Source: Protoeuglena noctilucae
Taxonomy: Eukaryota > Chlorophyta > Pedinophyceae > Marsupiomonadales > Marsupiomonadaceae
Reading direction: 5' to 3'
DNA: 64,000 nucleotides
Assembly: GCA_958009085.1 (NCBI GenBank)
Contig: OY253683.1
Location: 913,004 to 977,003 of the forward strand
Shown here: positions 1 to 45,800 of the stretch, piece by piece
Position numbering within the stretch: the first letter of the stretch is position 1
Layout: each line of letters begins with the position of its first letter
Translations under genes and position numbers: made by a program
The notes under the pieces: model-generated
Database searches by the model: none
Seen by the model: only the letters and a program-made list of their open reading frames with translations
Told to the model about the DNA's origin: nothing

Positions 1-2551
1 GCTCTTGCGATCGTGCTCGCGGGACACCACCCGTCGCTGCGGCTGGTGGGGGTCAGCACGGTGGCGGGGAACCAGACGGTCGAGGTGAGGTGGGGGTGAT
101 GGGGGGAGGGGTAGTGGTATTGGCTAATGAAAGAGATGCCAGAGAGATGCTTGGTGATGTTACCAGACGGTGGAGGCAAGGTGGGGCAGTGCATGCGAGG
201 GGCAGTGCAGACGCGAACAGCGCCACCCATCCATGTCACCTCTCCTATGTCTCCCACATGCAGAAGTGCACGGTTACTGCGCCATCAGCGCCACCCCTTT
301 ATCTCACAACCACATATCACACCTCTCCCATCTCCCCACACCTGCAGAAGTGCACCGCCAACGCGCTCGCCACGCTGCGCGCGTCGGGGCTATCGCATGT
401 CCCCGTGGTGCAGGGGTAGGCGCGGCCGCTGATGCAGGCCGACGCGTTGCTGTGTCCCGAGATCCACGGCAGTTCTGGCTTGGACGGTCCGGACCACAGA
501 CCCGTGTTTGTGCGGCACCCGGGCGACAGGCTGGTCAGGTGGGAGGATGGCGGTAGGAAGGGGGCGGGGAGTGTCACCGTGTTCAGTATCGCCACCCATT
601 TCGTCCAATGCCACCCCCGTCTTATCGGCTGTCACCTTTATCGCATCCACTGTCGCCCCCCACCTCCTCTCATCTCACCCTTATCATCTCACCGTCTCTG
701 CAGCACGAGGGGCGTGCTGGCCATGTTCCACGGCATATCCTGGGCATATCACAAACTCAACAAGGACCGAGCCAGGGTTGCGATGAGTGGCGAGGGCGGG
801 GGGGCGAGTGGTGGGGGTGGTGGGGGTGCGAGTGGGAGTGGGGGTGGGAGTGCGAGTGGTCGGGTTGGGGGTGCGGGTGATAGGGATGCGAGTGGTGCCA
901 GTGGGGGTGCAGCTGCGGGTGCGGGTGGTGCGAGTGCGGGCGATGGGTTAACCAGTGACCGCGCTGGCAGTGTCCCATCCATCCCCGATGCCCCTTGCCG
1001 CGTGGCGCTGGTGGCGACGGGTGCGCTGACGAACGTAGCGGTGCTGCTGATCATGTTCCCGGAGGTGGCGAGCATGGTGGACGTGTATTTCATGGGGGGT
1101 GAGTGGGGTTGGGGTTAGTGAAGTGGATAGGAGGCAGCATTCCACTTAACGAGCCACATCAGCCCCACCCCACGATCACCTCAGCAAGCACCACCGTCGT
1201 TCGCCCGCTCTCCACCCCTCCATCCACTCCCACGCCCCTCTCCCCCACAGCTCCCTTGGCCTTGGCAACAGAGGTCCCCCACCCACTCCCACTCCCACAC
1301 CCCCACTCCCACGCCCCTCTCCCCCACAGTTCTCTTGGCCTTGGCAACACAGCTCCTGTGGCCGAGTTCAACATCCAGAGTGACCCCGAGGCCGCGCGCG
1401 TGGTGATGCACAGCGGCGCGAGGGTGGCGATGGTGCCGCTGGACGTGACACACACCGCACTGGCGACTGACGGTGTACTGGCGAGGCTCACGGGTGCCAG
1501 AGAAGAGGCGAGGGGGGTGGGGGTGGGGGGATGGGGTATGAGATCCGGGATGTGGGATACGGGATGAGAGATGCGGGTAGGCGTTGCTTCCCAGGGCGGT
1601 GCGATAGCGAAAGAAAGGGCTGGAGTGGCGGCTTGCGCTGTTGTCTGCACTTCCACTGCCATGCTCACCCTTTCTGCCACCCCCACTGCCACCCTCACAC
1701 GCACCCCCACTGCCACCCCCCCTGCCACCCCTTCTGCAACCCCCGCTGCCACCCCCCCAGGACACCTCCCCCACCTTCCGCGCCAGCATTCGCTCACTAG
1801 TGACTTTCTTCGCATCTACCTACAAGCGAGTGTTTGGATTCGACCACCCCCCCATCCACGATCCCTGCGCTGTGGCATTGGTGGCAAGACCCTACCTGTT
1901 TACTGGCAGGCGCATGTGGGTGGATGTGGAGGTGGCCTCAACACTGTCCAGGTGAGGGGGTGGGTGTGGGGGGGCGAGGGTGCAGAGCACGTTGTTACCG
2001 TGTGAGGGCAGGAGAGCACGTTGTCATGTGCTAACACCACAATCCATACCGGGCGCCGAGTCTCTATCCATGCCATCACCATCACTTCTCTCAGTCCCCA
2101 GCAACACCGTCCAACACCGTCAACACTCCATATCATCATCACCACTACCCCCTTCTCTCTCCCTGTCAACACCATCGACAATCCATATCACCATCACCAA
2201 CACCCCTCTCTCTCCCTCTCCCATTGCAGGGGCCAGACGGTTTGCGACGCTTTGGGTGTGCTGGGCAGGCCAGGCAACGTGCTGGTGTGCGAGAGAATGG
2301 ACGTGGATGGTTTCTGGCAACAGATGGCGGGGGCGGTGGATAGGGCAGCGGCGGTGGCGGGGGTGGGAGATGGGGCGGTGGCGGGGGTGGGAGATGGGGA
2401 TGGGGAGGTGGGGCCGGGGGTGGTGGCGGGGGCGGGGAAGAGGAAGAGGGAAGTGCGGGTTGAGAGGGTAGGGGATGGGGTGGGGGATGGTAAGGGAAGG
2501 GGGTGGGAGTGGTGTGGGTGGGTGCGGTCGTTGCCAACCGCCTACCGCTGA
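1..2551 (+). CDS. Inosine-uridine type nucleoside hydrolase, 5' partial, possibly a pseudogene
   Basis: Hydrolyses the N-glycosidic bond of ribonucleosides in purine/pyrimidine salvage (family knowledge). The start lies left of the window. Traced exons: 1-84, 348-535, 704-1098, then an exon ending 1507, 1761-1951 and 2230-2551 (stop TGA). Recognisable blocks are [54 protein letters not shown] and HDPCAVALV, in the family order. Two problems exist. An in-frame TAG at 417-419 splits VVQG from [11 protein letters not shown] in exon 2. At the intron after 1098 the family motif sits at a duplicated acceptor: the acceptor at 1329 breaks frame, while those at 1250 or 1352 keep it. Exon 3 also carries a Gly/Ser-rich insertion of about 70 residues (780-960). 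The intron 1508-1760 starts with GC. The family call is firm; whether the gene works is not. Confidence 0.85.
417..419 (+). other. In-frame TAG inside a conserved nucleoside hydrolase exon
   Basis: The reading frame is unambiguous on both sides (VPVVQG, then ARPLMQ). No plausible GT-AG intron removes the stop: a 22-base excision starting at this GT would shift the frame. UAG is an ordinary terminator in this window (ends of OCP3-like, DBR1, RRP45 and NEK10-like), so codon reassignment is not the explanation. Confidence 0.8.
780..960 (+). repeat. GT/G-rich low-complexity insert inside an exon
   Basis: Repeats of the type GTGGGGGTGCGAGTG encode a Gly/Ser/Ala-rich stretch within nucleoside hydrolase exon 3. 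Its composition is the same as that of the 5' halves of nearby introns. It could be exonised intron-like DNA or an unrecognised intron. Confidence 0.6.
1222..1352 (+). repeat. Exon-edge echo at nucleoside hydrolase acceptor (79-bp offset)
   Basis: The block CACGCCCCTCTCCCCCACAG followed by TTGGCCTTGGCAACA occurs twice, with the AG at 1250 and again at 1329. About 50 bases match with few changes. The offset is not a multiple of three, so the two acceptors give different frames. Confidence 0.85.
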
Positions 2552-2885: not shown

Positions 2886-5422
2886 CTACCCCCGCTTCCC
2901 CCTCCCCCCCCTCTCCCTCCTCCGCTTCCCCTCCTTCACCGCACCCCCCAGCCCACCCACGCTCTCACCCCCCACCACCTTCCCCAACGTCGCACCAAAT
3001 GACTCATTACCATTCCCACTATCTCCATCATCTCTTGCATTCCCACCCCCTGCATTGTCACCCTCCCCCCTCCCTCGCCCCTCCATTGCCACCACTTTTG
3101 CCTTTGCCACCCCCTCACCACCTCCCGTCACACCTCTCCACACCACCGCCCCCTCCTCACCCCCACCACCCTCGCCCCCCATCTCCACATCCCCATCTTC
3201 ACTACCATTTTCTTCCTCACTCATGGCCTCCGATGTAGTGTCACTCGACTCCCCATCCCCCTCCTGAGCATCACCGCCCACCGCCAAACCACCCGCCACC
3301 CTCCCCACCCCGCCCACCACCCCATTTCCCTCCCCCACCCCCTTAGCCGCCATCCCCACCCCATCTAGTTCAGTCTTCCCCACATTGCTACCCCCCACAT
3401 GCCTCCGCACACGCGCTTGCACCCTCGCCACCTTGTGAGCCGCCACTGCCTTGGAAAGCAGACCTGCCATCTCCTCAGCTTTCGTGGATGCGACTCTGCG
3501 GGTGTGGATCATAGGGGGCATATTTGGAGTTGGAGATGGAAGCATAGCAAATTAGATCACATGCATCCATGTCACCTCACCACCGCACTCCGCACTCCAA
3601 CGGACGCACCCCATGCCAGCACATCTAGCCATCTCACCCCAACAGATGTCATTACATCCCACCAATCTCACCTCAAACACCGCATGACCTCCGCCGTGGG
3701 CACCCCCACTGTTCTCACCCCAACAGATTCCACTATAAAGCATGCGATGAGTGCCATCCCATCTACCGCCCGCAATATCTCACCTCAGGCACCGCATGAC
3801 CTCCGCCGTGGGCACCCCGGCCCTCCCCCTCTTGTCCACTGCGCACACCTCCCTCTGCCCATTCACGACGGCTGTGATGTACCCCTCTGCCGCCGCCTCC
3901 TCTGCCAAAGTGGGGTCCACGGCCACGTGACGGCCGCGGTCGAAGAGGGCGACCGTGACGCTGATCTGGGAAGGGAAGGGAGATGGGTTGGTATATATGA
4001 GTGATATGAGTGATACGTATGAGTGGTTTGGACAATGCTGGGGAGAATGGAAGAGGGCGATCGTGACGCTGATGTGGGAAGGGAAGGGAGATGGGTTGGT
4101 ATATATGAGTGATATGAGTGATACGTATGAGTGGTTTGGACAATGCTGGGGAGAATGGAAGAGGGCAATCGTGACGCTGATGTGGGGGGAGAGGGAGAGG
4201 GTTGAGAGAGTGAGGGGAGGTGGGTGTTGGAGTGTCGGATGGTCAGCGACACTGCAACACTGCTTATCACACACTCACTGGCATGTGGTGGATGGTCAGC
4301 GGCACGGGCTCCCTCTCCTTCGGGTCCACCACCCGCACCTCCCTTCCCCCGTCACCCCCCACCTCCACCTCCGGGCGACTGCGGGGGAGAGGGGGCGTGC
4401 ATTAGAGATGATAGCATGTAAGGGGAATGGAATGGGACACAGTCACATGCATGGCAGATGAGCTGAAACAAGACTGTATCCATTGAACATGGAAGCATGC
4501 AATGCCACTCTCACCGGAACGCCAGCAGCCCCGCCAGGCACGACAGCATGCACGCGTCTGCCAGGTTGCCACCATTGTCCAAAGCATGGATGTCGACACG
4601 CAAGGACCACACGCGACGGCCGGCCACCACACTGGGGGAGAGAGGGTGGAGGAGAGGGGGCATGGATGGATCAGCAGCAATGGGGGTGTGACGCTCGTCA
4701 TCCCTCTCCATATGAGGTGATGCCCCTCTCTCTCATCTATGCATTCTGCTTACACGCATCTCATCCCTCTGCATGAGCCGCTGGACCCTCACCACAGCGC
4801 CTCCAGGTCCAGCGCCCGCGACTCCTTGATGCCACGCTCTACCGCACGCGCCACACGCGTCGCTGCCTCCCCGGGGGCACCCGCATCGAACTCGTCCCCG
4901 GCCATGGGCCCAAACTCGACGTTGAACGACACCATCCCCTGCGCGCGGCAGCCGGGGGCGCGTGTTTCGCTCATGCAAATTCACGGGGCTCATGCGCGCT
5001 CCCCGGACACTCAATAGGCCATCAGAAACCTGCGGGAGGATGATATACACTATATGTTCCTGATGACCAGCGCCTTTGCGCCCCTCGTCACCTCGGAGGG
5101 CCGGTCGGAGAAGGGCTGCACGAGCTCCGCCGTGACGACCGTCACCACGCGCGTGGCGCCCAGCGTGACCTCCGCTGCGGTGCGCGGGGGCAACAAACGA
5201 TGTCTGTGACATCACCGGAGAGCCCTAGCGTGGAAGCGCGCCTGCGAAACGCGCGGGAGGGCCGGGAACAATGCGCAGGCGCTCACCCGAGGCATCGTCG
5301 AGGCCCAGGCGGATGTCCAGCGTGCGGAAGTCGAACGGCGACCTCCCGTCTGCCCGGATGCCCTGTCGCAGGGCCTCCACGACGAACTCGCGCTCGTTCG
5401 TGGACACGACCGGGCCGCCCAT
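2886..5422 (-). CDS. RRP45: Exosome complex subunit RRP45 (EXOSC9)
   Basis: A structural RNase PH-like subunit of the nuclear/cytoplasmic RNA exosome core ring (family knowledge). The ATG at 5422 opens MGGPVVSTNEREFVVEALRQ, then GIRADGRSPFDFRTLDIR, the classic RRP45 N-terminus. Further exons give AEVTLGATRVVTVVTAELVQ, PFSDRPSE, GMVSFNVEFGPMAGDEF, CVVAGRRVWSLRVDIHALDN, REPVPLTIHHMP and ISVTVALFDRGRHVAVDPT, ending the RNase PH fold. The last exon (about 3510 to 2886, TAG stop) encodes a helical segment and then an acidic, Ser/Gly-rich tail of about 150 residues. Acidic tails occur in EXOSC9, but this one is long and low in complexity. Several introns contain copies of their neighbouring exon edges (listed separately). 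Head to head with the OCP3-like gene. Confidence 0.92.
3576..3820 (-). repeat. Exon-edge echo at an RRP45 donor (112-bp offset, with a second decayed copy)
   Basis: CGCATGACCTCCGCCGTGGG (exon end EVMRCL plus donor) is at 3793 and again at 3681 inside the intron. A more decayed relative containing CACCTCACCACCGCACTCC is near 3578. Confidence 0.8.
3943..4190 (-). repeat. 108-bp tandem repeat, three copies of an RRP45 exon start plus intron end
   Basis: AAGAGGGCGACCGTGACG begins at 3943 in the true exon. Mutated copies begin at 4051 and 4159, each exactly 108 bases away. The unit holds the first eight codons of the exon (ISVTVALF) and the preceding intron end. The true acceptor reads CCCAG then ATC; the copies read CCCACATCAG, so they lost the AG directly before ATC but gained one three bases later. 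The minus frame stays open through all three copies. Confidence 0.92.
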
Positions 5423-9269: not shown

Positions 9270-12200
9270 ATGGGGCATGGGAGGCTGCCGAATGGACGCG
9301 CGGCGCGGGCCAGCGCCCTCGCTGGGTTGCGCGCGTGGCCAAGCCCGCCGGGCGCGCGGCAGCGACCGCGCCGGAGGACGCCGCGCCGCGTAGAGCTGCA
9401 ATTAGTCCGTCCGCGGTGAAGAGCATCGACGACAGCAGCGACGGACGCAAGGACGCGGGGCGCTCGCGGAGCCGGATGCCGTGGTGCGTGGCTCGTGCGC
9501 CGCGCGCAGCGAACCGCGGCTGCCTCGCCGCGCCGCGCTGCCCGTCGTCGCCTTGTATCCATCTCGAGCGACGCTTCGCGAGCCCGTTTCCGAGATGCAC
9601 GCCCCCGACGCCCCCGCAGGCGCTCCACAAGCAACCAGGGCCCCGCGCGCGCGGGCACCGGTCCCCGCACGCCCCGCCCGCCGTCTCGCGACGAATCTTT
9701 GACATCGTCCGCGTCGCCTCCGCCCGACCCGCCGCCCTTCCGGGCCCCGCGCCGCGAGCTGTCGGAGGACGCAGCGGCCGCGGCGCAAATGCTCGTGGAT
9801 GTGCTGGGGATGTCCAAGACCGAAGCCGAGGCAAGTTGCTTACATGCGTTATCTATATTGCCAGTCACATAGTTCACTTCGTCGGTCCGAGTCGACCCTT
9901 TCCGCACCGCCATTGGTCCCAGGACGTGCTGCAGCGTTCGGACGACAACGTGCTGAGCCACGGTTGGGTGTATAACTCCGAGGAGGTGCTGGGTCCTTTG
10001 TTGCGGACCCTTTTCGACCTCGGACTGACGCCCGACGAGGTCCGCCGGATGATCCTGGCCCAGCCCACATTGATACGGTGAGTGAGGGATGAGACGCGCA
10101 TGCATGTGGGTCAGTGGGTGGGTGGGTGTTAGGTGGGTAAGTGAGTGCGATGAGTGAGTTGTCATGGCGTCGACTGGTGAGCAATTGTGGGGCTGGCGTC
10201 GCATGTGCTGTAATGGTCACCCCCTCATCAACTCACCCCCACCCCCACCCCCACTACCACCACCCACACCGCCACCTCACTCACCCTCACCCTCACCCCT
10301 CACACCACCCTCACCCCCACCCCCACTCCCACCCCCATCCACCCCTCACCCTCACCCCCCCACCCCACCCCCCCAGCCGCAAGCCCGACCTTGTGCCCTC
10401 CAAGGTGGCGGTCCTTTCATCCCTGGGCGTCCCCTCGTCCCGCATGGGACGCGTATTGGTCAAATGCCCCCAGCTTTTGAATCTCTCCACCGACACCGTC
10501 ACACAGGCGGCCGAGTGGATGCGGGTGCAGGCGGGCATGACCCCCTCGCAGGTGCAGCGGGTGGTGACGGCCATGCCACGCGCGCTCACCTACTCCATCC
10601 CCGATAACCTCGAGGCCAAGAGGATGCTGCTCACGCAACTGGGTGAGGGAGATGGGTGGTTATATGGCTGTTTGGGGTTCTTTTTGTTGTTGGAATGGTT
10701 TGGTTGTGGTTGTCTGAGGCAGGGTTGCGTTGAGGGATGGCTGGTGGCGAATGGCAGCTGGGTGATGGGCACAGCTGCACCTACCCTTGCAGCCGTACCC
10801 ACACCCACACTCATCCCTCTCCCTCCCTTCCCCCCCAGGCTGGTCCAAAGACGACGTGACCCGCACCCTCGCCCGCTTCCCCCAAATCATGGGGCTGTCT
10901 CCATTGAACATCGTGGGGCAAGTGCTGCACCTGCAGCGATGGGGGCTGAGGCCAGACGAGGCTGCCACCATGCTTAAGGAGTACCCATGCCTGTTCGGGT
11001 ACCGGTGAGGGCGGGGCGGATGTAATGGGGTTTACTGATAGTGCTATCTATCAAGGTTACTGATAGTGCTATCTATCAATACCCGTGCCTGTTTGGACGA
11101 CAAGGCTGTGGTAATGCGATCCATACACAGTCACGCAACATGCCAGTATTGCATACAATAATAATACAATAACTCTATAATACTTACTTCTCTCTCCCCC
11201 CACTCCCAGCCGCTGCGTGCTGGACGTGAAAGCGGTGGTGCTCCGCTCCATGCTGGGACTCCCCTTCACCTCCGCCCTCCGCTTCCCCACCTACTTCGGA
11301 TACGCCACCGACAAGCGCGTGCTGCCGCGAGTCGCCTTTTCAAATCACATCGTGGGGAAGGGGCCGATTGACGTGGACCCTGCGTGGGAGGCGCTGGCGT
11401 GGCCGCCCCCGGCCACCGACGCTGCCGTTGCCAGGCTCACAGGTGAGAGGAAAGGGGGGCATGTAGATATAGAGGCTGCAATTGGTTTGGTTGTTCAGTC
11501 GTCAATTACGGCTGGTTTGTTGTTACTTGGATCTGCCGCCCCCGGCCACCGACGCTGCTGTGGCCAGGCTCACAGGCGAGGAGGGGAGGTGGATGGGGTT
11601 TGGTGAAGTATGTAGATGTAGATGTAGATGAAGAGGTTGCAATTGACTGTTCAGCTGTTGGGATTGGTTGTTCAGTCGTTTACAAGGGGTTGTTGTTACT
11701 TGGTTTAGATTAAAAATGTGACCTGGCATTCCAAACACCCCCACATTGCACCCTTTTCACCCACACCCCCACCACTACCTCCGCAGACATGCCCACCCGC
11801 ACCGCACACACACACACACACACACACCACCCCACACCTCTCACCCACCCCCAACCCACCCCCTCCCCGCAGACATGCTCACCCGCGCCACCACCGCCCC
11901 CGGCGCCTACCTCCCCACCCTCGCCCCATCCACGCCCCTCCGCCCCATCGCAAATGACGAGGATGATGATGACGATAACGACGATGCGTGGTCGTGTTTG
12001 CTAGACCCCTACCATCTCAGCCCCAGCCCCAGCCCCAGCCCCAGCCCCAGCCACGCCCGCCCGCCCTCCCCGCAACCGCAAACGATGCCGACACAGCTGC
12101 CACTGCCACTGCCACCCCACGCATTCACCCATAATCCATCACGCCCCCCGCCCCTATCCACCCCGCACACCCGCTCGCGCACCCCCACTTCCCGCGTTGT

Positions 12201-12791
12201 GATGGATGCGCCTATGGGGCGAGGGTGGGCGGCGCAGGGTGGATTGCAAAGCCGCGGGAGGGGTGCGGAGGGGGCGGGGGAGGGGTTGGGCGCGTACGCG
12301 GGGTTGCCGGATGCATTGGTTGTGAGGGCGCAGGGGGTGCGGCGGCCGGGGGGGGTGGAGGAGGTGCCGTTTGGGGAGGTGAGGGGGTTGGGGAGGGGGG
12401 AAATGTGGGATAAGTGAAGATGTGTGCATTGGGGAAGTGGGTGTGTCACTCTCACCCTGCCGCTTACCAGCTCTGCCACCCACACCTGTTCCCCCTCTCA
12501 CCCGGTCATCCACCCCCATCTCACCCTCTTCCCACTCACCTCCTCTCTCACCACCCCACTCACCCCCCCCCCCCCCTCACCCACCTCCCCCAGACCGGCC
12601 TCGACTTCGGATCTTTCGGCACATGGCTCACCCCCCCCGACGATGTCTTCCTGGAGAGACTTTCGAAAACGACCGTGCAGCCCGTGTCTCGGCAGGCATT
12701 CTGGCAGTTTCGCGAGGCGTGGGTGGCGCGCAATGGGCCGGTGCTGCGGTGGTGGCAGAGGGAGTGGGACAGGGCGGACGCGGGGGAATGA
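9270..12791 (+). CDS. mTERF-domain organellar protein with long C-terminal extension
   Basis: mTERF proteins bind organellar nucleic acids through helical repeats and control transcription or splicing (family knowledge). Secure exons: one ending 9830 (ELSEDAAAAAQMLVDVLGMS), then 9923-10077, 10377-10642, 10839-11004, 11210-11442, 11873-12378 and 12594-12791, all phase-consistent. Repeats of the form LTPDEVRRMILAQPTLIRRK, GVPSSRMGRVLVKCPQLLNL and LRPDEAATMLKEYPCLFGYR are typical. After the helical domain come an acidic run (EDDDDDNDD at ~11960), SPSPSPSP, a proline-rich linker and a final ~65 residues that I do not recognise (LDFGSFGTWLTPPDDVFLER). The start is unsettled: no ATG lies in frame in the first exon before 9789. 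An ATG at 9270 with a small intron ending near 9509 would give an Arg/Ala-rich transit peptide. The intron 9831-9922 starts with GC. Confidence 0.85.
10982..11105 (+). repeat. Exon-edge echo after mTERF exon 4 (98-bp offset)
   Basis: TACCCATGCCTGTTCGGG ends the exon at 10982. TACCCGTGCCTGTTTGGA recurs at 11080 within the intron. Between them a direct repeat, ACTGATAGTGCTATCTATCA, occurs twice in a row (~11034 and ~11060). Confidence 0.8.
11403..11705 (+). repeat. 134-bp tandem duplication across an mTERF donor site
   Basis: CCGCCCCCGGCCACCGACGC starts at 11403 in exon 5 and again at 11537 in the following intron. The duplicated unit continues past the splice site: a GTTGTTCAGTCGT...TGTTGTTACTTGG segment also occurs twice. 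In the true copy the donor is CACAG|GTGAG; in the echo it is CACAGGCGAG, a GC-type donor. Confidence 0.9.
12018..12052 (+). repeat. (AGCCCC)n hexanucleotide repeat
   Basis: About five and a half units encode the SPSPSPSP stretch of the mTERF extension. Confidence 0.9.
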
Positions 12792-13003
12792 GTATATTGG
12801 GAGTGGAGTTACTTAGGGGGAGTGTTCGGGTGTTTGGATGGGGGGGTTGTTGGTGGGGGATGAGGGAGTGGGACAGGGCGGACGCGGGGGAGTGAGTGCT
12901 GAGGGGGAGTGGAGGTTCATTTGAAAAGGGGGTGTTGAGTGAGGGGAGAGTGAGGGGGGGGTTGTTTGTGAGGGGGTGGGATGAAGCGGATGTGGGGGAG
13001 TGA
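12762..13003 (+). repeat. Three copies of the mTERF stop-codon region
   Basis: GTGGGACAGGGCGGACGCGG followed by GGGA and a TGA occurs at ~12764 (true gene end), ~12868 and, decayed, ~12976. The spacings are about 104 and 108. Each copy ends in a TGA in the same register (WDRADAGE or WDEADVGE). Confidence 0.85.
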
Positions 13004-13228
13004 GGGCATGCTTGTTGCTCTTTGTTTGAAATTCGAGACACGTGCTCCGATACGTTTGAAATGCTGCAAAAGAGGCGTTGCCTTGGATCTTTGCATCGCA
13101 CAGCCTGGGGAATCACCCACGCATCACGGTTGAGCGATGCGCCCATCGCCGCGCTCCCAACCACGTCCCCCGCATTCAATCACTCCCTCCCCAACTAATC
13201 ATAACTCTCTCTCTTCTCTTCATTCTCA

Positions 13229-16200
13229 TCACCCATTCCCCGCACCCGACCCCTCCTCCTGGATGGCTGGCAGGTCGGGGGGCTGACGCGAGGCGCGGAG
13301 ACTGGCGGACGTCTCGAGCGTGGCTGCGAGGAGAGGGGGGAGAGAGAGACGAGTGGTGATAAGAGTAATGGAAATGAGGGTGATTGGGTGGCATGACAGC
13401 ACCATTACCCATGCCCCATGCTCACCCTCCAAAGCCCCCCTGCTGCTCAAGTCCACGCATGCATGCCCCAACAGTACATCGACACGTCATCATTGCCCAC
13501 TATCAATATCAACATACCACTCACCCTCCGACTCTCCCCCGCTGCTGAGTTCCGAGTCCGCTGCCGAGGGACGCGTCTCCAGGAAGCTGGGCACGTGGCT
13601 GGGATAAGACGCGCCGGGGGACTGGGGGGGAGGATGGGACAGGGAAAGAGATGTTTAATATCAACCATACTGATGTTATTAATGTGATGCTGTATCACTG
13701 TGTGACGGACTATGCACCCTCTCCCCCCCCCCCCAAGCCATGCGTCTCCTCACAGCCACTGTTTGTCACCCCCACTCTCACAACCTTCCCCGTGTCAATC
13801 CCCACCGCCAGCTCCTCACCTTTTCACTCTCCGACTCCCCCCCACCCTCCGACACCCCCCTCCCCCGCCCGCTCCCGCGCTTCCCACCCCGCCCCTCCCC
13901 CTCGCCCCCGGACCCCCCATCCCCCCTTGCAGCGGCCTCCAATGCCCTCTCCGCCTTTTCCAATTCGCTATCCTCCGTACCAGCCCACGAGGTTTCAGTA
14001 ACTAAACCCCTCGCACCGCCCCCGCGCCCCCCTTCGCCCCCCCGCCACCGCCCCTCGCTGTTGACTCCGTTGTTGTCCTTTGCGCCGTTGCCGGGGCGGT
14101 GCCTGGCGTTGAGGCCCAAAGAGTGGGGGCGCTGGAAGGCCTCGGGCGGCACTTGGCCCTTTAACTGGGGCGGGAGTAAGGGAGGTGGGTAGATTAGAAT
14201 TAGTTAGTACTACTAGTTAGTGCTGTTGATGGAAGCTGTCTCAATGGAGAGGCACTGGCGGTGTTTACAATATCAATACAGTCAATCATGTCTCAGATGC
14301 AAGGGCAGTCACCCATTTCACTCCCTCACTCATCCAACACACACCCCCATGAACCACTCTCACCTGCGCCATGACCCCCAGGTCCCCCATGCGCACGGCG
14401 ATGTACTTGAGCATCTCCCAGATGTCCTCGTCTTTATTCCCCCAGTCGAGCACCTGCCCCCGCATCTTAGGCAGGCGCTGGAAGAGGTGCGTGATTGCAT
14501 TACGCGCCTCGGCCAACACCTCACGACGGTCCTTGGTGGCCTGGGGGGGGGGGGGTGTGGATGGGTGGTGATGTTTGATAACGATGATACTTGATGGTGA
14601 GGGGTTAAATGGATGGTGATGTTAGTTTGATAACGATGATACTTGATGATGTAGGGATGGGGGAGGGAGAGCATGGGGTTGGTGGGTGTGGAAGAGTGGG
14701 ATGGGCCGGTGGTTGCGGTGATGGGTGCAGTACCCAACTCACTCCCTCTCATTCCTTTACACCTCCCCGCGCATCCATTCATATCTCTGCTCCTCCGCAC
14801 ACACTCCCCCTAAACCACCCTTGCCTGTATGCGCGCCTCGACCGCCTGCGTGAGCGCCCCCTCCCTCCCCTCCAAGTCACTCTGCGTCTTCTGCCTCTCC
14901 CCCAACAGTTGCGTCTGCGTGACCAGTCTAGTCGTCGCTCTCTCCCCCTCGTCCTGGATGCTCCTACGCATCTGCTCCAGCCGGGCCATCGCGCGGTCCA
15001 GGCGGCGCTTCAGCTGTGAACGCGTGTCGACCAATGTCTGTGGGTGGCGAGAGGGGTGGTGGTGGTGGTGGGTGGGAGCGGGTGGCTGAGCTAACTGCGC
15101 GTGTCGACCAATGTCTGTGGATGGGGGGTAAGAGAGGGAGGGGTGGTGGTTGTGGTTGAGAGTGGCAGTGGGCTGCACTGATGCTGGGATCGCAACGCCG
15201 CTGGTCACCCATCGCCAGTCGCCAGTCACCACCCGTCGCATGGCAGCAGCGTCACAGTTGCACCCTCATGCTGGCGTGGCCACTCCCTCTTCGTCAAACG
15301 CCGCTGTTCACCTCTAAGTCATACCACACTATCTTCACTCATCAAGTCACCTGGAACCTGCGTATCATATCCGTGGGGTCCTCGAATTCCGAGTACTTGG
15401 TCAGGCACGTGTCGACGAAGGACGAGTAGCCCTCGTGCTTGCGGATCTCCACCAGGAAACCCGCGCGGCGACGCATCAACATCTGCAGTTAATGTAACGA
15501 ATGCGAGAACGGGGTCAGAGCTGGGAAGCGATGACTAACGGTTGATGTGCATGTGTTGAGGTCTTGACTCATATAAACTACTCATATCATCAAATCAGTC
15601 ATTGCTTATCATATCCATCATATTCACCCCGTTCCACTCGCCTCCAGCTCGTCGTGCAGCCCGCTGATCTGGTCGTCCAGCGCCACGTTCTCGGCCGCCA
15701 GCTCGGAGGCGCGCTTGAGCATCCCGGCGCGCTTGCTGTCGTTGTCGCGCACGAACTGCTCGAACTGCTGCATCAAGTTCTGAAGACGCTCCTCCTTCTC
15801 CTTCTGCGGACGGGGCCGGCGCAGCGAAGCGAATGAGCGCGAATAAATGAGCGATAGCCTCGACACTGTGTGCCCGCTCGAGCGCGCTCCCGCGGGACCG
15901 AGAGCGCTCGCTGCTTGACCCTGTGTCTTTATATTGCTATGCTGTGCATCTACGACCCGCAACTCGCCTGCAATCGCTCCAGGCGCTCGCATTTGCGCAT
16001 CCGCTTGACGAACTCCTTCCGCTTGTCGTCCAGCAAGCGCTCCAGATGCTCCAACTGCCGCTGCTTCTGCATCAACACCGTCGTCTGGCTGCTGAAGCCG
16101 CCCGCTGCGGGAGAGGGGACGGGGGGCGCTGGTGCGGCGCCGCATGTGGGGCAGGGAGGGACCGCCACGCGCGCCGCGCGCTGGGCCAGCCCATGCGTGC

Positions 16201-23838: not shown

Positions 23839-26800
23839 TCATCCACCATCACTTCTTCCACACCCTTCCATTCCCGTCTCTTTCAAACCGTACATCCCTC
23901 CACCATCACACATTTCAAATCTCAACCCCCCCCCTCTCCACCCCCACGACCGTCGCGAACTCCCCCGGTGTCGCCTCCGCCCCCGCCACGTCAGAGGGGT
24001 CATACCCGCACCCGGTGTCAGACAGGCAGTGCCAGACGTAGGCATACGAGTCGACGAGGCGGGACAGGGCGCGGCGGGAGAGGTGGGAACTGGGGGGGGG
24101 GGAGGGGTGTGGGGTGAGTGGGGGGGCGGCTGATGGGTAGGTAGAGCATGGGGTGTGTGGGTGTATAGATGCGCATGCTTGGGTGTGGTGGTTAGTTAAG
24201 TACAGTTGAGTAAGTTACTCGCATTACCCCACCCATCACATTCACCCACTCACCGCATTACTGCATCTGTCACCCTCTCCATCTCCGGCAGTGCGCCCGG
24301 CATGGCGGCCCTCTGGAACAGCGCCCGCAGGCACCCCGCCACCCTCGCCCCGCGCAATGCGGGGTCGGATGCCATCGCCGCTCTCTGCCCCTCGGATTCA
24401 AACGCCCGCATGCGCCCCTCCACGTCCGCCACACCGCAGCTGCCCAGCAACACGCCCACCTGGGAGAGAGGGGAGTGGGGGAGTGGGGGAGTGGCGTGAG
24501 TGGTGTGAGTGGTAACACAGTGGTGCCACAGTGCAGCTGCCCAGCAACACGCACATTTGGAGAGGGGGAGGGGGGAGGGGAGTGGGGGACTAGAGGAGGG
24601 GAGTTGGTGGATAGAATGAAGGAGTGGATGAAGTGGAAGTAATATTACTGTTGGGTCGACCAGTGCACCTCCTTCTACACCACACACCACAACATCCCCC
24701 CCGATCCCCCAACCCACCTCACCACCACCACCACTCCCCACTCCCCACCCCACGACCCACAACAACACACAACACACATACCCCCACCTAACCTTCCCCC
24801 CCCACCCCCCTCACCTCCCCCTCCACCGCCTCTACAACACACCCCTCACCCCTCAACCAACCCCACACAACACCCCAACACCCCCCATCCCCATCACCTC
24901 CCCCTCCACCGCCTCCGCCCCGCCCCTCTCCTCCATCGCCGCCACCTCCCCCTCCCACCGTTTCAAACACCCGGCCTGACGCAGGGCTTGGCGAAGCGGA
25001 ACAGCACAATTCACCAGCAACGCCCCTCTAGCAGACAGCGCCTGCCCCTCTGCCACAGCTTGCGCGGCTGGGGGGGCGTTTTCTGGCACAGAGGTCGGTG
25101 CCAGAGTGGGTGTGTTAGGGGTGTTGGGGAGTGGGGGTGGCGGTCGGGATGTGGGGTGGGGGTGGCTGCCCTGTGTCACCCTCGCTGCCAAGGCGTCACC
25201 CAAAGTGGCACTGCGATGGGGGAGGGGGCGGGGGGGGGGTTATGTAAGTTAGTGATGAATGGGTGACATGGATGCAGAGAGAGGGGCGATGGTGAAAGGC
25301 GAACGTCAGTGCAGCCACGTCATGCACACATGCGCACTCATGCACACCCCACCCCCGCATCAGTGGCTGCAGGTGTGATATACTGACACACATACACACA
25401 CAGAGAGAGAGAGAGAGACTCGACAATCACTCACCACACGCGCATGAGTGGCTGCAGGTACCCCCCCAGTGCGTCGCTCATCGCCTCCCCCACCCACGCG
25501 TCGCCCTCCCCCACGCTGCCCCGCCACTCCCGGCACATCTGAAAACGAGCGGGTGCGAGCTTGTTACAGATAATAGATCACAGTTTCGAAAACAGGTAGC
25601 GATGATTTAGTCACTATGTGTGCTTACATGAATCGCAACGACCAGCGATGCAATCTACCCCACACCCCATCCCACCCACCCAGTCACCCCCTCCACCATT
25701 GCAGTCAAACAGCAACAAACCATGCATCAACTAAACAAACAACGCACCCACCCACCCCACCCACACCCACTCACCGCCTCCACCACCCCCGCCGCCTCCA
25801 CCACCGCCGTCGGTGCAGCCGGGGCAGCGATGGGCGGCAGCGGCGGCGGCCGCTCCTCCACCCCCCTCCCTTCCCTCGCCAACCCCTCCACCAGCCGAGC
25901 GCGCGCCCTGTCGCGACACCCGCGCACAGCGTCCGCCAGCCGCAGCGATGGCGAGAGGACGCCACTTGCCCGACCTGCCCCATCACCACGTTCGCCCCCA
26001 CCCTCCCCCTCGCCACCGCTATCGTCACTCCCACTCCCACTCTCAGCACCCACTTCCTTGCTCCTCTCTTCTGTTGTATTCACCCCCGTCACGGCTGCCA
26101 GCGTCTGACAGTAAAACGCCAGCACTTGCATCAGTCGCAGCGTCAGAATGGGCGATGCGTCGGGGGATGCCAACACGCGGCGGATGCGGGCGCTGGGGGA
26201 GGGGGAAGAGGGGGAGTGTCGGAGAGTGGATGGATGATGAAGGGGTGGTGCGGGGGTGGGGCCAAGGCGGGTGTTGTGAGAGAGATGGGGTGGCTATCTC
26301 ATCTCATCCCATCACATCTCATCTCTCATCTCTAATATCATCCCAACTCTCGCCTCCCATCTCACCTGAGTGGCTCGCTCAGCGCCTCCATCACCGCATT
26401 CAAAGCCTCCGTTGGTGACGGAGACAGGGACACCGACGATGATGCCCTCACTGCACCATTCGTGCCATTGCCACCCACAGCGCCCTTCACAGCACCACCC
26501 CCCTCGTTGCTCCCCTGACCATCGCCCTCCCCCGTCTCTGCTCCCTCATTTGGGTATAGGCACTCCAGGAGCTCCTTCTCCTGCAAAGTTCTCAAATATC
26601 ACTACTATTCATGAATTCTGTACTAGTATTGGATACGCAGAGATGTGGTCGTGATACTTAGCAATGGCTGCGGGGTGTGCCGTGTTTGCATGAACCGCAT
26701 GGCTCACCTGCGCGGTCGCCTGGTGCACCCACGCCAGCATGTCCGACACGTAACTGCGACGAAGCAGAGGGAAGGAGAGTGCGACAAACTGAAAGAGAGC

Positions 26801-30820: not shown

Positions 30821-33800
30821 TCACGCCCTCTCCCTCGCCACGAGCGTCGCCTCCCTCTCCCCCGCCTGCTCCCCCCTCTCACGCATCGTGAGCGTCACCG
30901 CCCCATCCGCCCCCAGAGCGTACTCCCACACCCACGAGGGCTCGTCCCCCGCCAGCCGCTCCACTTGCACTTTGAAACCCTCGGGACTGGCAGCGTCTGG
31001 CAGTACCGTCATTCTGGCACCGTCTGGCACCACGAAGGTGTGAGACCCGGTAAAGGTCACGTCTCTGGCGTCGAACTCGGAGCGGCCCTCTAAAAGCACC
31101 AGCATGCCCTCCTTGCGGGAGACACTGCGGAAGGGGGGAGAGGAGAAGGGGAGTGGGTGAGATGACATCACGGTGGCAGTGGCATGGTGAATCGATGCCA
31201 ACCCACCCACGGTTGCGTACTAGCTCAGACCGCACCGTTGCTTCCAGTGCACATGAACAGCGCAATCCAGTCCTCTCCCACACCACCACCCCACACTCAC
31301 CGCAGCTTCCAGTGCACATGAGCTGTGCAATACAACACTCATCTTCCCCACTACCCACTCACCGCTGCTTCCAGTACACGTTGGCGGGTCGTCCCTGTCA
31401 CCCCCGCGTTGACCACGCGACACCCCACCATGCGACAACGCGCGCCGCGGTCCGAGAACACCAGGCGACGCTCGTCGGAGTTAGCAGAGTCATTGGCATT
31501 GGCATTGTTATTGTCATCGTTTGCATTAACAGCCTCGGTGTGGCCCAGGGGACAGGATGCCTCGACGCGCAGAGAGCCGTCCAGGTCCNNNNNNNNNNNN
31601 NNNNNNNNNNNNNNNNNNNNNNNNNNNNNNNNNNNNNNNNNNNNNNNNNNNNNNNNNNNNNNNNNNNNNNNNNNNNNNNNNNNNNNNNNNNNNNNNNNNN
31701 NNNNNNNNNNNNNNNNNNNNNNNNNNNNNNNNNNNNNNNNNNNNNNNNNNNNNNNNNNNNNNNNNNNNNNNNNNNNNNNNNNNNNNNNCCCACCTCCCTC
31801 ACCTCCACCAGCACGTTGATGCCCTCGGATGCCCCGTACGCCCTCCCGCACGACGCGAACCCGAACGCCTTGTTGCCCAGGCACCCGGCACCCGCCAGCG
31901 CAAGCAGGTTGGCGTCCGTGCCCGCCATGGGGTTGGAGATCTGCCGAACGATGGCGGCGGTGCGGCCGCGGGACGCCAGCCACGCAAACGCGCCTGCGCG
32001 CGAGAGGGGTGGCGAGGCCGTCACACGTGATAGCTCCCTGTTACACGAGACTGACACACACGCAGCGGATGGCTCGCAGTGCGCAGGGCGCAACCGGCAC
32101 TGTGCAGTGTGTTATGCACAGCCGGCCCTGTGCCGGCGCACAGTGTGTGACCCACTGCCACCCGGCGCCCATCCCTCGCCCTCCCTTCCCACTCGCCTTC
32201 GTCCTCCATGAGCTTCCACAGGGCCCCGTGCCCCCCCGGCTTGAGCATGGGAGACAGCGCCCCCTCCAGCAGCCACGCCCCGTCCTCCGCCGACACCACG
32301 GGCACCATCGGCTGCTCTACCAAATAGAAGGACTCACGGCCACGGCCCATCCACCCACTGCGGACAGGCCATGGGTGGAGTGAGAGGTAATTCGGGTTAT
32401 GAGCGAAGTGAGATGTGCAATGGCATAGTGGGAGCCTCCGGCAGCGAAGTGAGACCGCAGCTGCCCACTGTGTGGTAGAGCGAGGTCCCACAACCCTCGC
32501 GTCCCGCACCACCACCCCCGCACCCCTCCCTTGTACCCCTCACCACTCCTCAAGCAGCCCCACGATCCGCGCGTGGTTCCCCTTGGCCTGGCTCGTCATC
32601 ATCACCACGGGCGTCGTGTGCTGCTCCCCCGTCACGCGCCAGTGAAGGTACTCCCGCGCCTCCAAGTCACGCACCAGCCCTTCCAGCAGTGACCGCCCCG
32701 CATAGGGCAGCACCGCCGTCGGCAGCGCCTCCCCCGTCGCCTCGTCCACCAGGCCCAGGCGGTCACCCGCGCCGCCCACGGGATAGATCTCCGCCAGGCG
32801 GGGCAGCACGCGGAGGCCCTCCCCCGCCCACCGCCGACGGCGCTCTGGGTGTATATTATGGGGGGGTGGGTGTGGGGTTACGGTATGGTGGACGCGCTTT
32901 CGGATGCTGTTGGCGGCCTCGCTGCGTGCAGGGCGACGTCGTTGCGTGCCCACGACACCCAGCGCTACCCACCTGGCCCCTCGGCGCACGCGTCGCTGAT
33001 GTCCGGCCCCGTGGGGGTGTGGAAGGCCACGCGCGTGACCCCCGCCCCCGCCCCCGCCTCCTCGCGGCCCTCGATCAGCTGCAGCGCCTTAATCTGGTAG
33101 CCCACCAGGCCGCCGATCGAGTCGTAGAAGCGCTCGGCACGCGACAGCGTGCGCACCAGACCCGCCAGGGCCATTCCCAGGGGGTCCCCACCCGACGCGA
33201 CCCCTGCGAGCGACAACCCCGATTGCGTAGCGATAGCAGCGCGTGCGTCACGCGGCAGGTGTTGTTGTTCATTCACCATCACTACTGTCGCCCTCACCGT
33301 CGCCCCAGTCCACGCTGTAGGTGCTGTCCGCGGCAGAGGCAGACGGCGAAGGGGCCGGGTGGTCCGTCTCCGCAGTCGGCAACACCGACAGGACGTGCCC
33401 CTGGCCCATGGCCGGCAACAGCAGCAGCACCGCCAGCCCGTCCGCGTCGAGGGCGCCCTCCGCAGCAGCCAGGATGGCGCGGCCAGCGGGCGTCGCGGCC
33501 CAGGAAGACACGAGAGGGTCGCGGCGCAGCATCGACAGCCTCGCGAGGGGGTCGGATGCCGACTCTGCGGGGGGCGAGGGAGGGGCGCGTTCGATTCTGC
33601 GGTGCAGGGCCGGGAAGACGCTTCACGCGTCGCCGGCGACGCGCAACCCACCGAGCCTCTTGCGGAGGTCTTGCAGCTGAGATATCTGCGCAGCGATGGA
33701 CCGCCCCGCCTGCACGCTCGCCTCCGCGACCGCTTGAGTGCGCCGTGACATCGGCCTGCAGGGAAGGCGTGCGGGGGCGCGGTACGCGGGGCTGGCGGGC

Positions 33801-38211: not shown

Positions 38212-38299
38212 CGGGGCGCGAGCATAGCGTAACAACGTGCGATTTCAATTGGCAGAGTCACGGCGGAGCAGGCCGACGATTGAATTGAGGAGCCGCTCA

Positions 38300-40402: not shown

Positions 40403-42652
40403 ATGGGAGACGCGGAGGGGATCCAGGCGTGCCACATATGCCTGCCCAGCGCGCGGCAGCTGCTGAGCCTGCTCGACGCGCGCAGGGCCACCGACAGCAA
40501 GAAAGCCAAGCATTTACCATGCATTGTGAGACTCTGCGCTGCAATAGCGATGCATGGACCGGCTTGCCGCTATGCGCTGCGCCGCGCAATGCCACGCGCT
40601 CGGCACGCTCACACGCTGCGCGCGTCCCCGGCCTGCACAGATGACCATCGGGCCCGCCGGCCTGGCGGTGCAGTGGATGGACGCCTCGCGCACGCTCCAG
40701 TGCTCCGCATCGCTCAAGCCGGAGCACTTCACGAGGTGCGCACGGCGTTGTGCACGTGGGCGCATCGTGCACCCGTCCCCTCTGCGCCCTGCACCGCCCC
40801 GCGCCCCTGCGTCCCTCCCCGCAGCTTTTCCAACCCCGGTTACTCGACGCGCAAGTTTTCTGTGGGTCTGTACGCATTGATGGGTGCCCTGGCGGTGCTG
40901 GAGGCCCACCGTGCGCCGTTGCAGCTGAGGCATCCGGGGCCAGACGGGTGAGGGTGGGTAGGGTAGGGGTAGAATTGCAAATGGAGAGTGGCCACACATG
41001 AGAGAGGTGAGCAGGGATGGGGAGGGCTGTGGCGCACCGCACCGCGTGACTTGACACAGAATGAACATCATTCTGGATGTTCAACATGCACTTGCGATGT
41101 TTGAAATCAACCATATCTACCCTCAGATGCCTGGTTCTGGAAGTGGAGGAGCTCCTGGGGGACCGTGGGGGCGAGGGTGCGGCTGCGGGTCACGATGACG
41201 CTGACCCTTCCATCTGCACCTACGCCCACGTGGCGGTGCTCGACGAGGAACTGACGGGGGACTTGAGGTGAGAGCGTGGCTCAGGGCGATGGATGGGACT
41301 GGTGGTGGTGTGATGGGTGTGGTGGCTGAGCTGGTCGCAGTGGTGATGAGCGGGTGTCATGGCTTGGTTAATGGCGTGATGCTTCCGCTTATTGCATGGA
41401 CTGGCCTTGGCTAAAACTGCGCATTCTGCATCCCCTTCGTCCCCCTCCCCAGCCTCTTCTGGCAGGCGCCAGAGACCAGTTTCGTGCTGCGCGGCCCCAT
41501 CCTCCGCGACGCCGTGGACTCTCTGCGCTGGGCATCCCACGACGTGCGGCTGACTGCGGACGGAGCCACCGTGACCCTCGCGTCGGGGGCCGTGGGGGCC
41601 AACGCACTCACCGTGCGCATACCTGAGGTAAGTAACCCTAAGGTTACTTCCTAAGTAACCTTAGGGGGGTGCCGCGTGTCGGTGGATGCAATGTGCGATG
41701 ATGTTGTGTCTGTGGTGACTTACGCGGGATAAGGGCTGCTGTTGCATCTAGGCGTATGGATGGCTGATGATGTGCCAATAAGCTACACGACAGCGCTGGG
41801 AGTGTCGGCAGCGGTGTACCATCGCTTGCTGCATCGCCGATCAGTATTAACGACAGTTCTTCCATCTCCGCAGTCTCTGGTTGAGTCCCCCAGCTGCCCC
41901 CAGGGCGTCGTCTCGTGGACATACAGGCAAGGCAATGCAATCGAAGGGACACAACATGCGAGATGCACGAAGGCCCTGTAGTCTCGAGCAAATTCGCATT
42001 TCACTTCCACTCTCTCTCTCTTATCCCTGTTATTATGTTTATTACATTTACCAATGCTGCCATGTGTGTCTCGTGACACAGGTGGAGTCATCTGGAGGCG
42101 GCGGCGGGTGTGGTGTCTGCGCCTGCGCATGGGGAGCGAGACACAGAGGGGGAGGGGGAGAGGGGTGGCGCGGGGGCGGGGGCGGGTGCGGTGCTGAGCA
42201 AGGTGTCGATGGACAGGCACGGGCTGCTGAAAGGTGAGGGGAGCGGGGTGGAAGTGGGAGGGTGGGAGAGGGAGGGGCGCCCTGCTTGGTTACCAACTGA
42301 TGTTTCAACAATCCCAAGCGTTGATGCACATATCCAAACACTTCATTCTTCCCATACTCCCTCGCAGTCATGCACATGGTGCTTATATCTGCCATCAACA
42401 CACCTCTCCCCATCTCCGCACTCCCTCGCAGTGATGCACATGGTGCCGATGCCGGGCGCGGCAGGCGCGTCTCCCCCCACCCCCGCCGTGGTGCATTTCG
42501 TGGCCACGCCCGTCGAGGGTGCGGCGGTGGATGCGGCGCCGGGGACGCCGGGCAGCGCGGGGACGCCGGGCAGCGCGGGGGCGGAGGTGGAGGGCACGGG
42601 GGAGGGGTATGGAATGGGGCCGTCTCTGATGGAGACGGACGAATCCGATTGA
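40403..42652 (+). CDS. RAD1: DNA-damage checkpoint clamp subunit RAD1 (9-1-1 complex)
   Basis: A PCNA-like ring subunit loaded at damaged DNA to activate the checkpoint kinase ATR (family knowledge). Exons 40403-40525, 40641-40735, 40825-40947, 41127-41267, 41453-41627, 41874-41926, 42082-42233 and 42432-42652 join to an exact 360-residue frame. Family blocks: LPSARQLLSLLDA, MTIGPAGLAVQWMDASRTLQ, SLKPEHFTSFS, FSVGLYALMGALAVLE, LFWQAPETSFVLRG, VSWTYRWSHLEAA and VSMDRHGLLKVMHMVPMPG. The segment ERDTEGEGERGGAGAGAG is a low-complexity insert, and the C-terminal 50 residues are Gly/Ala-rich and acidic. Intron 41927-42081 starts with GC. The intron after 41627 begins with a strong hairpin (separate entry). 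Confidence 0.92.
41637..41665 (+). other. Perfect inverted repeat just inside a RAD1 intron donor
   Basis: CCTAAGGTTACTT at 41637-41649 pairs perfectly with AAGTAACCTTAGG at 41653-41665, with a 3-base loop. C41636-G41666 extends the stem to 14 pairs. The donor GTAAGT starts at 41628, nine bases upstream. Confidence 0.95.
42357..42450 (+). repeat. Exon-edge echo at a RAD1 acceptor (64-bp offset)
   Basis: CTCCCTCGCAGTGATGCACA at the true acceptor (AG at 42431) is preceded by CTCCCTCGCAGTCATGCACA with AG at 42367. Both continue TGGTGC. Use of the upstream AG would add 64 bases and shift the frame. Confidence 0.92.
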
Positions 42653-42844: not shown

Positions 42845-45800
42845 TCACAGCGGCAGCGCCCCCAGCCTCGCCACCAGCCCCTCCGCCCCCCTCACCCCCC
42901 CCAGTGACCCCCGCAGCCCCGCCGCCACCTCCCTCACCCCCGCAAGCGCGACCCGGAACGACCCATCCGCCCCCAGCTCCCCCGGCACTGCACCGGCCAC
43001 GTCCTCCAGCGCAGCCACGCAAGCGCCGGCTATCACCGGGTCCCCCGCCGCTGCCGGCCCCCCCGCGAGCGCCCGCAGTGCCGGCACCACGCACCGATCC
43101 AGCAAGTGGCTGGCGATGAGGGGCGCAAGGGACGCGGGCCTGAGCACCTCGTGCCACCGGCACGCGCACGCCAGGGCGATGACGGCGCGTGCGAAGAGGG
43201 TGGAGGCGAGGTGGAGGAGGTGGGGGCTGGCGTGGAGGGCCGCGGCGGGCCAGGGCATCAGCCGCACCGACTCCAGGCGCTCTCTGTGGGTGGGGAGTGG
43301 ATGAGAGTGGATGGGGTGAGTGGACGAGAGTGGATGTGAGAGTGGGTGGTGAGCGAGTGTGGTAATTGTGAGTAACAGTGAAGCAGTGGGGAGTGCATGG
43401 CATCGATCACACCGACTCCACCCCCCACGACCCTTCCCTCCCCATCTCTCTCTTTCGTCACCTGAGCCTCCCCTGCACGGTGTCCAGCAGCCCCGCCAGC
43501 CCCGGTGCCTCTGCCGGGAGATACACGAGCAGATCCGACACCGCACCCACCATCTGCGACGCGACACGCAAGGGGGGGTGATGAGCGACGAAAGCATTTG
43601 CACACACATGTTGAAGGACATGCACTGACACAGACACATTCGGGGCAGGCCACCTGTGCCGTCAACGCACATCTCTTGCTGCCCCTCATGTCACATGCAG
43701 ACTCGCCCCACCCCTCTCACATCCTGTCTCACTATATGACCCCCATGCATACAGTCTCCCTCACAAATACACACCCCATTTCGCCCCAAATCTCACTCTC
43801 CGCATGCAGTCTTACTCCAAACCCCCCATGCATACAGTCTCATCACATCACATCTCACCTGGTTCGTCTGCGCGGGGTCGATGGGGTCCCATGCTGTCTT
43901 GAGCATCTCCCCCACATACGGCAACACCAGCTGCTCCACCAGGCGAGGCATCAAGTCCGCATCCGGGTCACCCTGAGATTGTGAGCAGGAATTGTGAGTA
44001 GGAAAAGGTGCATGGGTTGATGGATGCAGGGACAGGTGAGGATCGACAAAGACGGATTGGCACAGTAAGCACTGACCCCCCCCCCCCCCCCCCCCCATCC
44101 CCCTTTCCGATTGTCTCCTCGCCTGCTCCCCGTCGGCCCCGAAGTCGAACAGCTCCTTGTACCACCCCTGGGATTCAAACCCGCCACCCCCCGACGCGCC
44201 GTACAGGGGGCCCCACTGCAGCAGCTCCGATCGCACGAAGGGGGCCAGGAGCACCGCGGCTGCGTCGGAGGCATACGCGTCTCTGTAGGTGGAGGGGAAG
44301 CGGCGCTTCCACTCCTCCAGGAGAGATCGCACGGCCTGGGGGGGAGGGGCGGGGGTGGGTGGGAGGCGATGAGAGGTGTGCTTGTGGCTGGCAGGGCAAG
44401 GGTGGTTTGCGAGGTGTGCCTATGGTGCTAATGCAGGCGTGACATGAGAGGTGTTAGTAGTGACGTGGCAGAGGCAAGCAAGGTATGCTCGTGGTGGCAG
44501 GGCATGGGAGGCATGATGGGAGGCAACTGCTGTGGCACGACCAAGAGGTATTGTGATAATGGTGGCAGGGATGAAGAGGCAATGAGAGGTGTAATGGCAG
44601 TGGCAGGGCAGGCGAGGCGGCAATTGCGGACACACCAAAGACGACAGCACGGCTGCTGTCACAACCGGTGGCACCCCCCCACCCATCGTCTCCCCCTCAC
44701 CTTGAGCGATGCGTATTTGTCCGCCACGTCCGCAAACACCGCCGGCACCGTGCGCACGATCTCCTCCCTCCGGCGATGGAAGGCCGACATGTGAGACGCA
44801 CGCACACTGCCACCCCCCTCCGCGCCCTCCCCCAACGCCCCGTGTCTCATCTGCGCCCTCTGCCACCCGCTCCCATTCCACCTCCCCTGCGCCTGCTTGG
44901 CCATCTCCTGCGCCTGCCTCCTCCTCACGGCGTTCATGTCACGCCCAGTCTCATCCACATCGGCCGGCACAGAGGCACCCGACAGCGCCTCCCCCACCGC
45001 GCGCTCCCACTCCGCCGACGCAGCGTGGGACGCAGAGGTGGATACTGACACAGAGTTGCCCACTCCAGCTGCGATGGCACCCAGCGCGGCCCTGACCACC
45101 CGCTGCCCCAGTGCAATGTCCATGTCCACCTCCTCCTCCCAGGCCCTCCCCAGGTCCTCCGCACACTCCGCCACCACCCGCATCACGTGCAGCTCCATCT
45201 CCTCCACCACCGGCGCCTTGCTGCCCAGGCAGTCGCACAGCGCGTCGATGTCCGATCGCAGACCCTGCAGATACTCGTACCGCTCGCCCACGCGGGAGAG
45301 GGAGGCCTCGAGAGACTCCACCTCGTCCACTGCATAAGGGGAGATGGGAGAGGATGGTATGAGTGCATGATGTAGAACATTTGGGACGGGCAATGACAAT
45401 GCACGTAAGGGACGAGGCAACGACTGTTGCAAAGCGTTTCCCACTCTTCCCACTCTCCATCCCTCCCTTTCCACCCCCCTCCCCATTCATAACCACCCTC
45501 TATCCCTCCCCATTCCCATCCCCATCACCCCCCTCCCCTCACCCATGGCAGCCAGTTGCTCCCCCGCCCTCTTCCATCCCCATTCACATCCCCATCCATA
45601 GCTGCTCTCTATCCAATTCCCTCTCCATCTCTACCCCCACCATCTCACCCGTGGCAGCCAGTTGCTCCCCCGCCCTCTCCCTCCTCCTCTGCACCTCCTC
45701 CCCCTGCACCCGCAGCCGGCGCACCCCGTCCTCCAACGCAGCCAGCACCTCCAATGGGGACAGCTCCACGCGGGGAGGGGGGTGGGCGGAAGAGGGGTGC

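Follow-up and report, generated by a model that had tools for sequence, protein, structure and literature searches.

The window, by which we mean the whole 64-kb stretch of DNA analyzed here, is the terminal 64 kb of its contig (913004-977003 of 977003) in an assembly of 26.3 Mb and 26 contigs, and has a GC content of about 64%. Using self-trained models we predicted 20 genes and 143 introns in it, with a median intron length of 174 bp and a splice consensus of AG|GTGAG at the donor and CAG at the acceptor; these models were trained on the DNA sequence alone, and all junctions discussed below are predicted ones. One of the 143 introns was excluded from the intron tests on account of N, leaving 142. 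Two other routes to gene models were rejected: codon-usage self-training on the longest open reading frames converged to wrong frames, and a model with a weak intron penalty fragmented into 647 introns, most of them tiny. GC-AG introns account for 31 of the 143 predicted introns (22%; e.g. 18128-18251, 55383-55539 and 56025-56206), display a strong AG|GCGAG donor and are spread over many genes, including those for the flippase and DBR1; elsewhere their share is usually about 1%. The contig terminates in a telomere-like (GGGTTA)n array at 63798-64000, and the wider region 63757-64000 includes a variant TTAGGTTAGTTTT unit just before it.

Among the encoded proteins, mTERF, a kinase, an M32 peptidase, a UGP3-like protein and a flippase were recognized by Pfam in single reading frames of the window, and DBR1 and RRP45/EXOSC9 via the sequences of solved structures. 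The closest matches of DBR1 come from green algae, with the top match in Elliptochloris at 51% identity. Other names used below, such as COG6, RAD1 and PAXBP1, are those that we take the predicted proteins to deserve; a search of the PDB found no relative of the RAD1-like protein. The UGP3-like gene contains a run of 200 N at 31589-31788, which makes its gene model uncertain.

The introns of these genes repeatedly contain copies of the edge of their own flanking exon, which we term echoes. The initial annotation of this DNA had listed such copies in at least 13 places, and all 13 pairs were recovered close to where it had placed them, with 15-134 matching bases, 84-100% identity and offsets of 53-133 bp (108 and 216 in the array at 3942); each has a predicted splice junction inside one of the two copies or no more than about 12 bp from it. 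The DBR1 gene (plus strand) has an intron, 18951-19248, that holds copies of both its own edges: a donor-edge echo at 18933..19035 (offset 78, 25/25 bases, echo donor intact) and an acceptor-edge echo at 19133..19268 (offset 108, 25/28, echo acceptor intact), such that the order is donor, donor copy, acceptor copy, acceptor. The DBR1 junction FLQ|IVHF is consistent with seven homologues. That an intron with both edges copied sits in the gene for the lariat-debranching enzyme is, as far as can be told, a coincidence. In the RRP45/EXOSC9 gene (minus strand) a donor-edge echo at 3665..3818 (offset 112, 40/42) retains an intact echo donor, GAG|GTGAGAT, and part of the intronic portion of its unit is duplicated too, while an acceptor-edge tandem array at 3942..4204 comprises 2.5 copies of a 108-bp unit, the first two sharing 98% identity, with CAC in place of CAG at both echo acceptors. 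These two echo-bearing RRP45 junctions fall within an unbroken alignment to the human protein.

Further donor-side copies were found on both strands. On the plus strand, the mTERF-like gene carries an exon copy at 10982..11096 (offset 98, 15/17, weak when taken alone) that ends before the splice site, and a donor-edge duplication at 11402..11703 (offset 133, edge copy 43/46) has the echo donor GCGAG and decayed intronic sister pieces at 11622-11703. On the minus strand lie a short exon copy at 4237..4305 (offset 53, 15/16), which again ends before the splice site; an exon copy at 25349..25459, absent from the initial annotation, with an offset of 85 and 26 bp at 88% identity, which stops at the splice site and excludes it; a donor-edge tandem of three copies in the UGP3-like gene at 31233..31379 (offsets 65 and 62, echo donors GTGAGTG and GTGCGG); and a donor-edge echo in the PAXBP1-like gene at 45527..45681 (offset 106, 43/49) with an intact echo donor and a detectable intronic sister. 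For the copies at 31233, 31298 and 31360 the gene model yields a 2-bp exon, and by our reading the donor at 31362 was taken instead.

Acceptor-edge echoes were likewise found at 1224..1356 on the plus strand (1224-1277/1303-1356, offset 79, 50/54 identical, echo acceptor intact), at 11781..11886 on the plus strand (11781/11867, offset 86, 19/20; a further case not noted previously), at 24428..24555 in the COG6-like gene on the minus strand (offset 97, 28/31), where the echo acceptor has been lost by a change of CAG to CAA, and at 42356..42446 in the RAD1-like gene on the plus strand (offset 64, 26/27, echo acceptor intact). For the first of these the gene model placed the acceptor at 1352 and the initial annotation at 1329; we prefer 1329 because it restores a frame that presumably encodes a nucleoside hydrolase. 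Junctions were thus misplaced by the model at two of the noted sites, 1224 and 31233. The characterization of the noted pairs as exon-edge copies holds for 12 of the 13. The remaining one, 15021/15098 (15021..15175, minus strand, offset 77, 26/27), is an intron-only duplication 8 bp from the acceptor, lying 8-34 bp inside the intron, in which the spacer is duplicated too and no exon is copied. Of the 12, the copies at 4237 and 10982 contain exon sequence only and end short of the splice site.

To put the association on a quantitative footing, each of the 142 introns was compared, under score thresholds, with the 40 bases nearest to it in each of its own flanking exons. The own exon edge was found in ten introns at a score of at least 12 and in seven at a score of at least 14. 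At the former threshold, shuffled versions of the same introns gave 0, 0, 0, 0 and 1 hits, introns of another gene 0, 1, 0, 0 and 1, the reverse complement of the own intron 0/142, and the intron two away in the same gene 0/139. The comparison of exon edges with their own introns against shuffled introns, which had been proposed genome-wide with the initial annotation as its own check, comes out in its favor within the window, at 10/142 against 0 or 1 per control. Likewise, 12 of 284 edge segments matched, as against 1 of 154 exon segments taken 60-100 bp from the edge. At a looser score of 10 the excess is smaller (17 introns versus 1 to 7 in the controls). Seven of the ten positive introns contain noted sites, and the others are 22405-22578, 25211-25434 and 45815-45986, the last being of low complexity. 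The pair 10982/11080 (15/17 bases) lies under the threshold used and 4237/4290 (15/16) is short.

We then searched for local copies of any kind, using a relaxed complexity filter as a strict one lost real pairs. This recovered 37 direct pairs in the window after thinning at offsets of 13-300 bp, most densely at 50-125 bp; beyond this there were two at 300-500 bp, none at 500-1000 bp, and none in 623 sampled offsets at 2-40 kb. Under the identical filter only two inverted pairs were obtained, none with a score of 16 or more. The matched parts mostly span 14-58 bp and usually have a spacer between them, an arrangement that at first sight does not resemble a tandem duplication. Thus, the copies are direct and close together rather than dispersed, in the manner of short tandem or paired local duplications, and the earlier proposal that they arose by local duplication is supported; their divergence is varied (84-100% identity). 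Near the telomere a 58-bp copy (63003-63060/63303-63360) lies 300 bp from its partner at 79% identity.

Echoes occur outside the window too. Of seven other loci examined, five carry by our reading an exon-edge copy (L008 8706-8799, L011 7433-7584, L020 ~7364-7470, L026 3490-3573 and L030 7366-7525), these being drawn from 290 kb, and two, L007 and L013, could not be assigned. The copy in L011, on another contig, is a clean donor-edge tandem of four copies spaced 36, 36 and 40 bp. The window is nevertheless denser in repeats: at equal settings its first 63.7 kb yielded 34 repeat families and 29 other 10-kb stretches together 34, both counts including simple and coding repeats. By the rate of edge echoes a hot spot is not established, as 1 of 54 introns at three other loci was positive versus 10 of 142 in the window (Fisher p = 0.30), and at those three loci 1 of 162 control comparisons also passed. 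A simple telomere effect is not supported within the window, whose pieces contain 8, 11 and 7 families at first and 3, 3, 1 and 1 toward the end. Predicted introns have a median length of 174 bp in the window against a shorter 122 bp (54 introns) in L022, L024 and L030.

To understand why so many copies fall at exon edges, we distributed units with the sizes of 22 observed offsets (25 to 133 bp) randomly over the gene models. In this exercise 32% of the units fell within exons only, 25% within introns only and 32% across one junction. Among duplications that would be tolerated, the expected junction-spanning share is 0.559, and the observed share is 14/24 (58%; 14 junction and 10 intron-only events) or, when 1224, 4237 and 10982, which come only from the initial annotation, are omitted, 11/21 (52%). 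Events were merged by hand for these counts (11461 and 11517 into 11402, 19431 into 19399, three pairs into 29559, two into 31233 and one into 3942); from the 37 pairs we dropped the intergenic ones at 71, 255 and 2547, the offset-300 pair at 63003 and three low-complexity pairs, 11923 (exon to intron), 25477 (exon to edge) and 62306 (exon to exon). Exon-only duplications were expected at 0.55 per tolerated event, that is 12 to 13, and none was kept, 62306 having been dropped as low-complexity. Within the limits of small numbers and hand-merged events, placement behaves as if gene features mattered through selection only. As random placement already predicts that 56% of the tolerated events span a junction, no tie to splicing is required to account for the concentration at exon edges: duplications need not be drawn to splice sites, and splicing can shield them from selection. 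In the mTERF-like gene the 3' end with its stop codon was copied in a similar manner: 12748..13005 (plus strand) contains three copies of its last codons and stop at spacings of 104 and 108, the later ones matching the first at 91% and 70% identity, and a stray predicted gene, g4, repeats the final residues of this gene.

These observations lead us to favor, with a probability of about 0.72, an origin of the echoes as tandem micro-duplications that are placed at random and filtered by selection, whereby introns already present become longer and acquire surplus splice sites. The segment involved, between some tens of bases and about 133 bp in size, would be copied beside itself at an arbitrary location, probably by slippage or end-joining. 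Within an exon this would damage the protein and the change would be lost; in an intron or across a junction the outermost donor or acceptor would still be usable, the mRNA would stay the same and the change could survive. With introns of only about 170 bp, more than half of the duplications that survive would straddle a junction and leave an echo of the exon edge, in many cases together with its splice site. In the subsequent decay the repetitive intronic half would probably become unrecognizable first, through insertions and deletions, and the exon-derived half would stay legible longest. The net result would be longer existing introns with spare splice sites.

If the echoes are what is left of tandem units, the spacer between the copies should have a sister on the intronic side, and this would distinguish tandem duplication from a repair-mediated insertion, in which an intron break is mended with a short copy of nearby DNA or filler is placed between duplicated staggered ends. 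A sister copy of the spacer was detected in the intronic flank of 6 of 13 tested junction events (p <= 0.01, 200 shuffles), most plainly at 11402/11535 (z 13.9), and in the exon flank of 0 of 13, one reaching p 0.03; in the fourteenth junction event, at 3942-4204, the 108-bp units form an open array. A sister confined to the intronic side is as decayed tandem units require. In the seven other tested junction pairs (1224, 4237, 10982, 11781, 19133, 25349 and 42356) no spacer sister was found, so that a templated insertion is possible for them, and some of these match over 27 or 28 bases at 89-96%, so that decay of the remainder is a strained account of them. Capture of nearby DNA, splice sites included, has moreover been described in vertebrates (PMC2671141). 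However, copying in either orientation, an expectation that we drew from a single example in that study, is at odds with the 37 direct versus two inverted pairs, and besides the intronic-side sisters there are clear tandem arrays at 3942-4204 and in L011. In whole-genome searches for a source of the filler, which skipped simple repeats, the intron 18951-19248 had no match beyond itself and the edge of its own exon, and the intron 11443-11872 matched itself, its exon edge and contigs C23 and C2 at 81 and 74%, the latter matches falling in its last third, outside the spacer. Insertion during repair is accordingly the alternative that fares best, and we regard it as possible for the echoes at large while rather unlikely.

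The initial annotation had suggested that the copies would be a live record of intron birth or growth, birth being by tandem duplication of an exon segment with a splice-site-like AG|G. Local duplications are indeed frequent here and include splice-like sites, and the route is documented elsewhere (PMC3443670 and PMC2891723). But when an intron is born in this way, from a segment with AG|GT, it is the duplicated unit itself, and its donor junction should resemble its acceptor junction. At every threshold applied, none of the 142 introns had this geometry (permutation means 0.0 to 1.5). Furthermore, the echoes sit inside introns longer than their offset, and therefore lengthen introns that already existed. 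Births as recent as the observed echoes should be visible in this test, whereas very old, fully decayed ones may escape it. Echo-bearing introns of the window have a median length of 293 bp versus 170.5 bp for the others (p = 0.0015), a difference that lends weak support to growth because longer introns offer more room for matches and the duplication itself adds length. What the data support in the window is thus growth and not birth, which we consider very improbable as the source of the echoes.

A third possibility is that echoes persist because they function as alternative splice sites or as decoys. Comparison of 16 copies in 14 events showed that the site is intact in ten, was never included in three, and has been lost in three (two at 3942, one at 24428); 7 of the 10 intact copied sites differ from the true one by about 1 log unit or less. 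The suggestion that duplication may create alternative sites holds to the extent that, where a site was included, it has mostly been kept (10 intact versus 3 lost), and such sites could serve. The three losses and the three copies that never had a site speak against retention for such a role, as does the fact that use of the echo would bring in a stop in 8 of 15 evaluated insertions (for two of them, 31233 and 31298, the exon is doubtful). The DBR1 donor echo alone is intact, in frame and free of stops; its use would add 78 bp, or 26 residues. Intron-only duplications are nearly as frequent (10 versus 11 or 14), and we deem retention for function very improbable as well. Finally, introner-like mobile elements with target duplications, though known in other eukaryotes (PMC9860276), can practically be dismissed, as an all-against-all BLAST of the 142 window introns gave one weak match between different introns, no sequence being related across many of them, and at least nine introns with direct self-duplications among the matches listed, two of these also having inverted self-matches.

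Random micro-duplication filtered by selection thus offers a simple and testable account of intron lengthening in a compact genome, wherein changes survive where splicing hides them; it tells intron growth, which is visible here, apart from intron birth, which is not, and it supplies pairs of real and copied splice sites in which site choice and decay can be studied. As a more speculative extension, to which we attach only a modest chance, there may be regions of this genome where edge-spanning micro-duplication is the main intron-lengthening force, steadily supplying near-perfect second sites, with introns of the DBR1 type as live intermediates toward alternative or nested splicing.

Short local duplications are already known, and the echoes add a new and rich instance of them. 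Among the open-licence papers listed in our searches, no title or abstract opening reported exon-edge copies as a gauge of intron growth in algae. Repair-mediated capture of proximal DNA (PMC2671141) resembles the present case in that copying is local and may include splice sites; that study excluded cases within 50 bp in order to remove tandem duplications and illustrates an opposite-orientation example, whereas nearly all copies here are direct. Intron gain by tandem genomic duplication, as outlined in PMC3443670, PMC2891723 and also PMC4974935, shares the tandem copy of a segment with a splice site, but there the intron is the duplicated unit and here an existing intron is lengthened. Direct repeats of 4-30 bp (mean 11.4) at intron borders are described in PMC11782384 and are alike in lying at intron/exon borders, though they relate the 5' border to the 3' border, whereas the echoes repeat a single border within the intron. 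The nearest relatives, as cited in PMC2671141, are the short paired duplications termed doublets (Thomas et al. 2004) and the tandem duplications reported to predominate among recent short insertions in human (Messer and Arndt 2007), which are likewise short local copies lying close together; what differs is that in this compact alga-like genome with its short introns many of the copies include an exon edge and its splice site.
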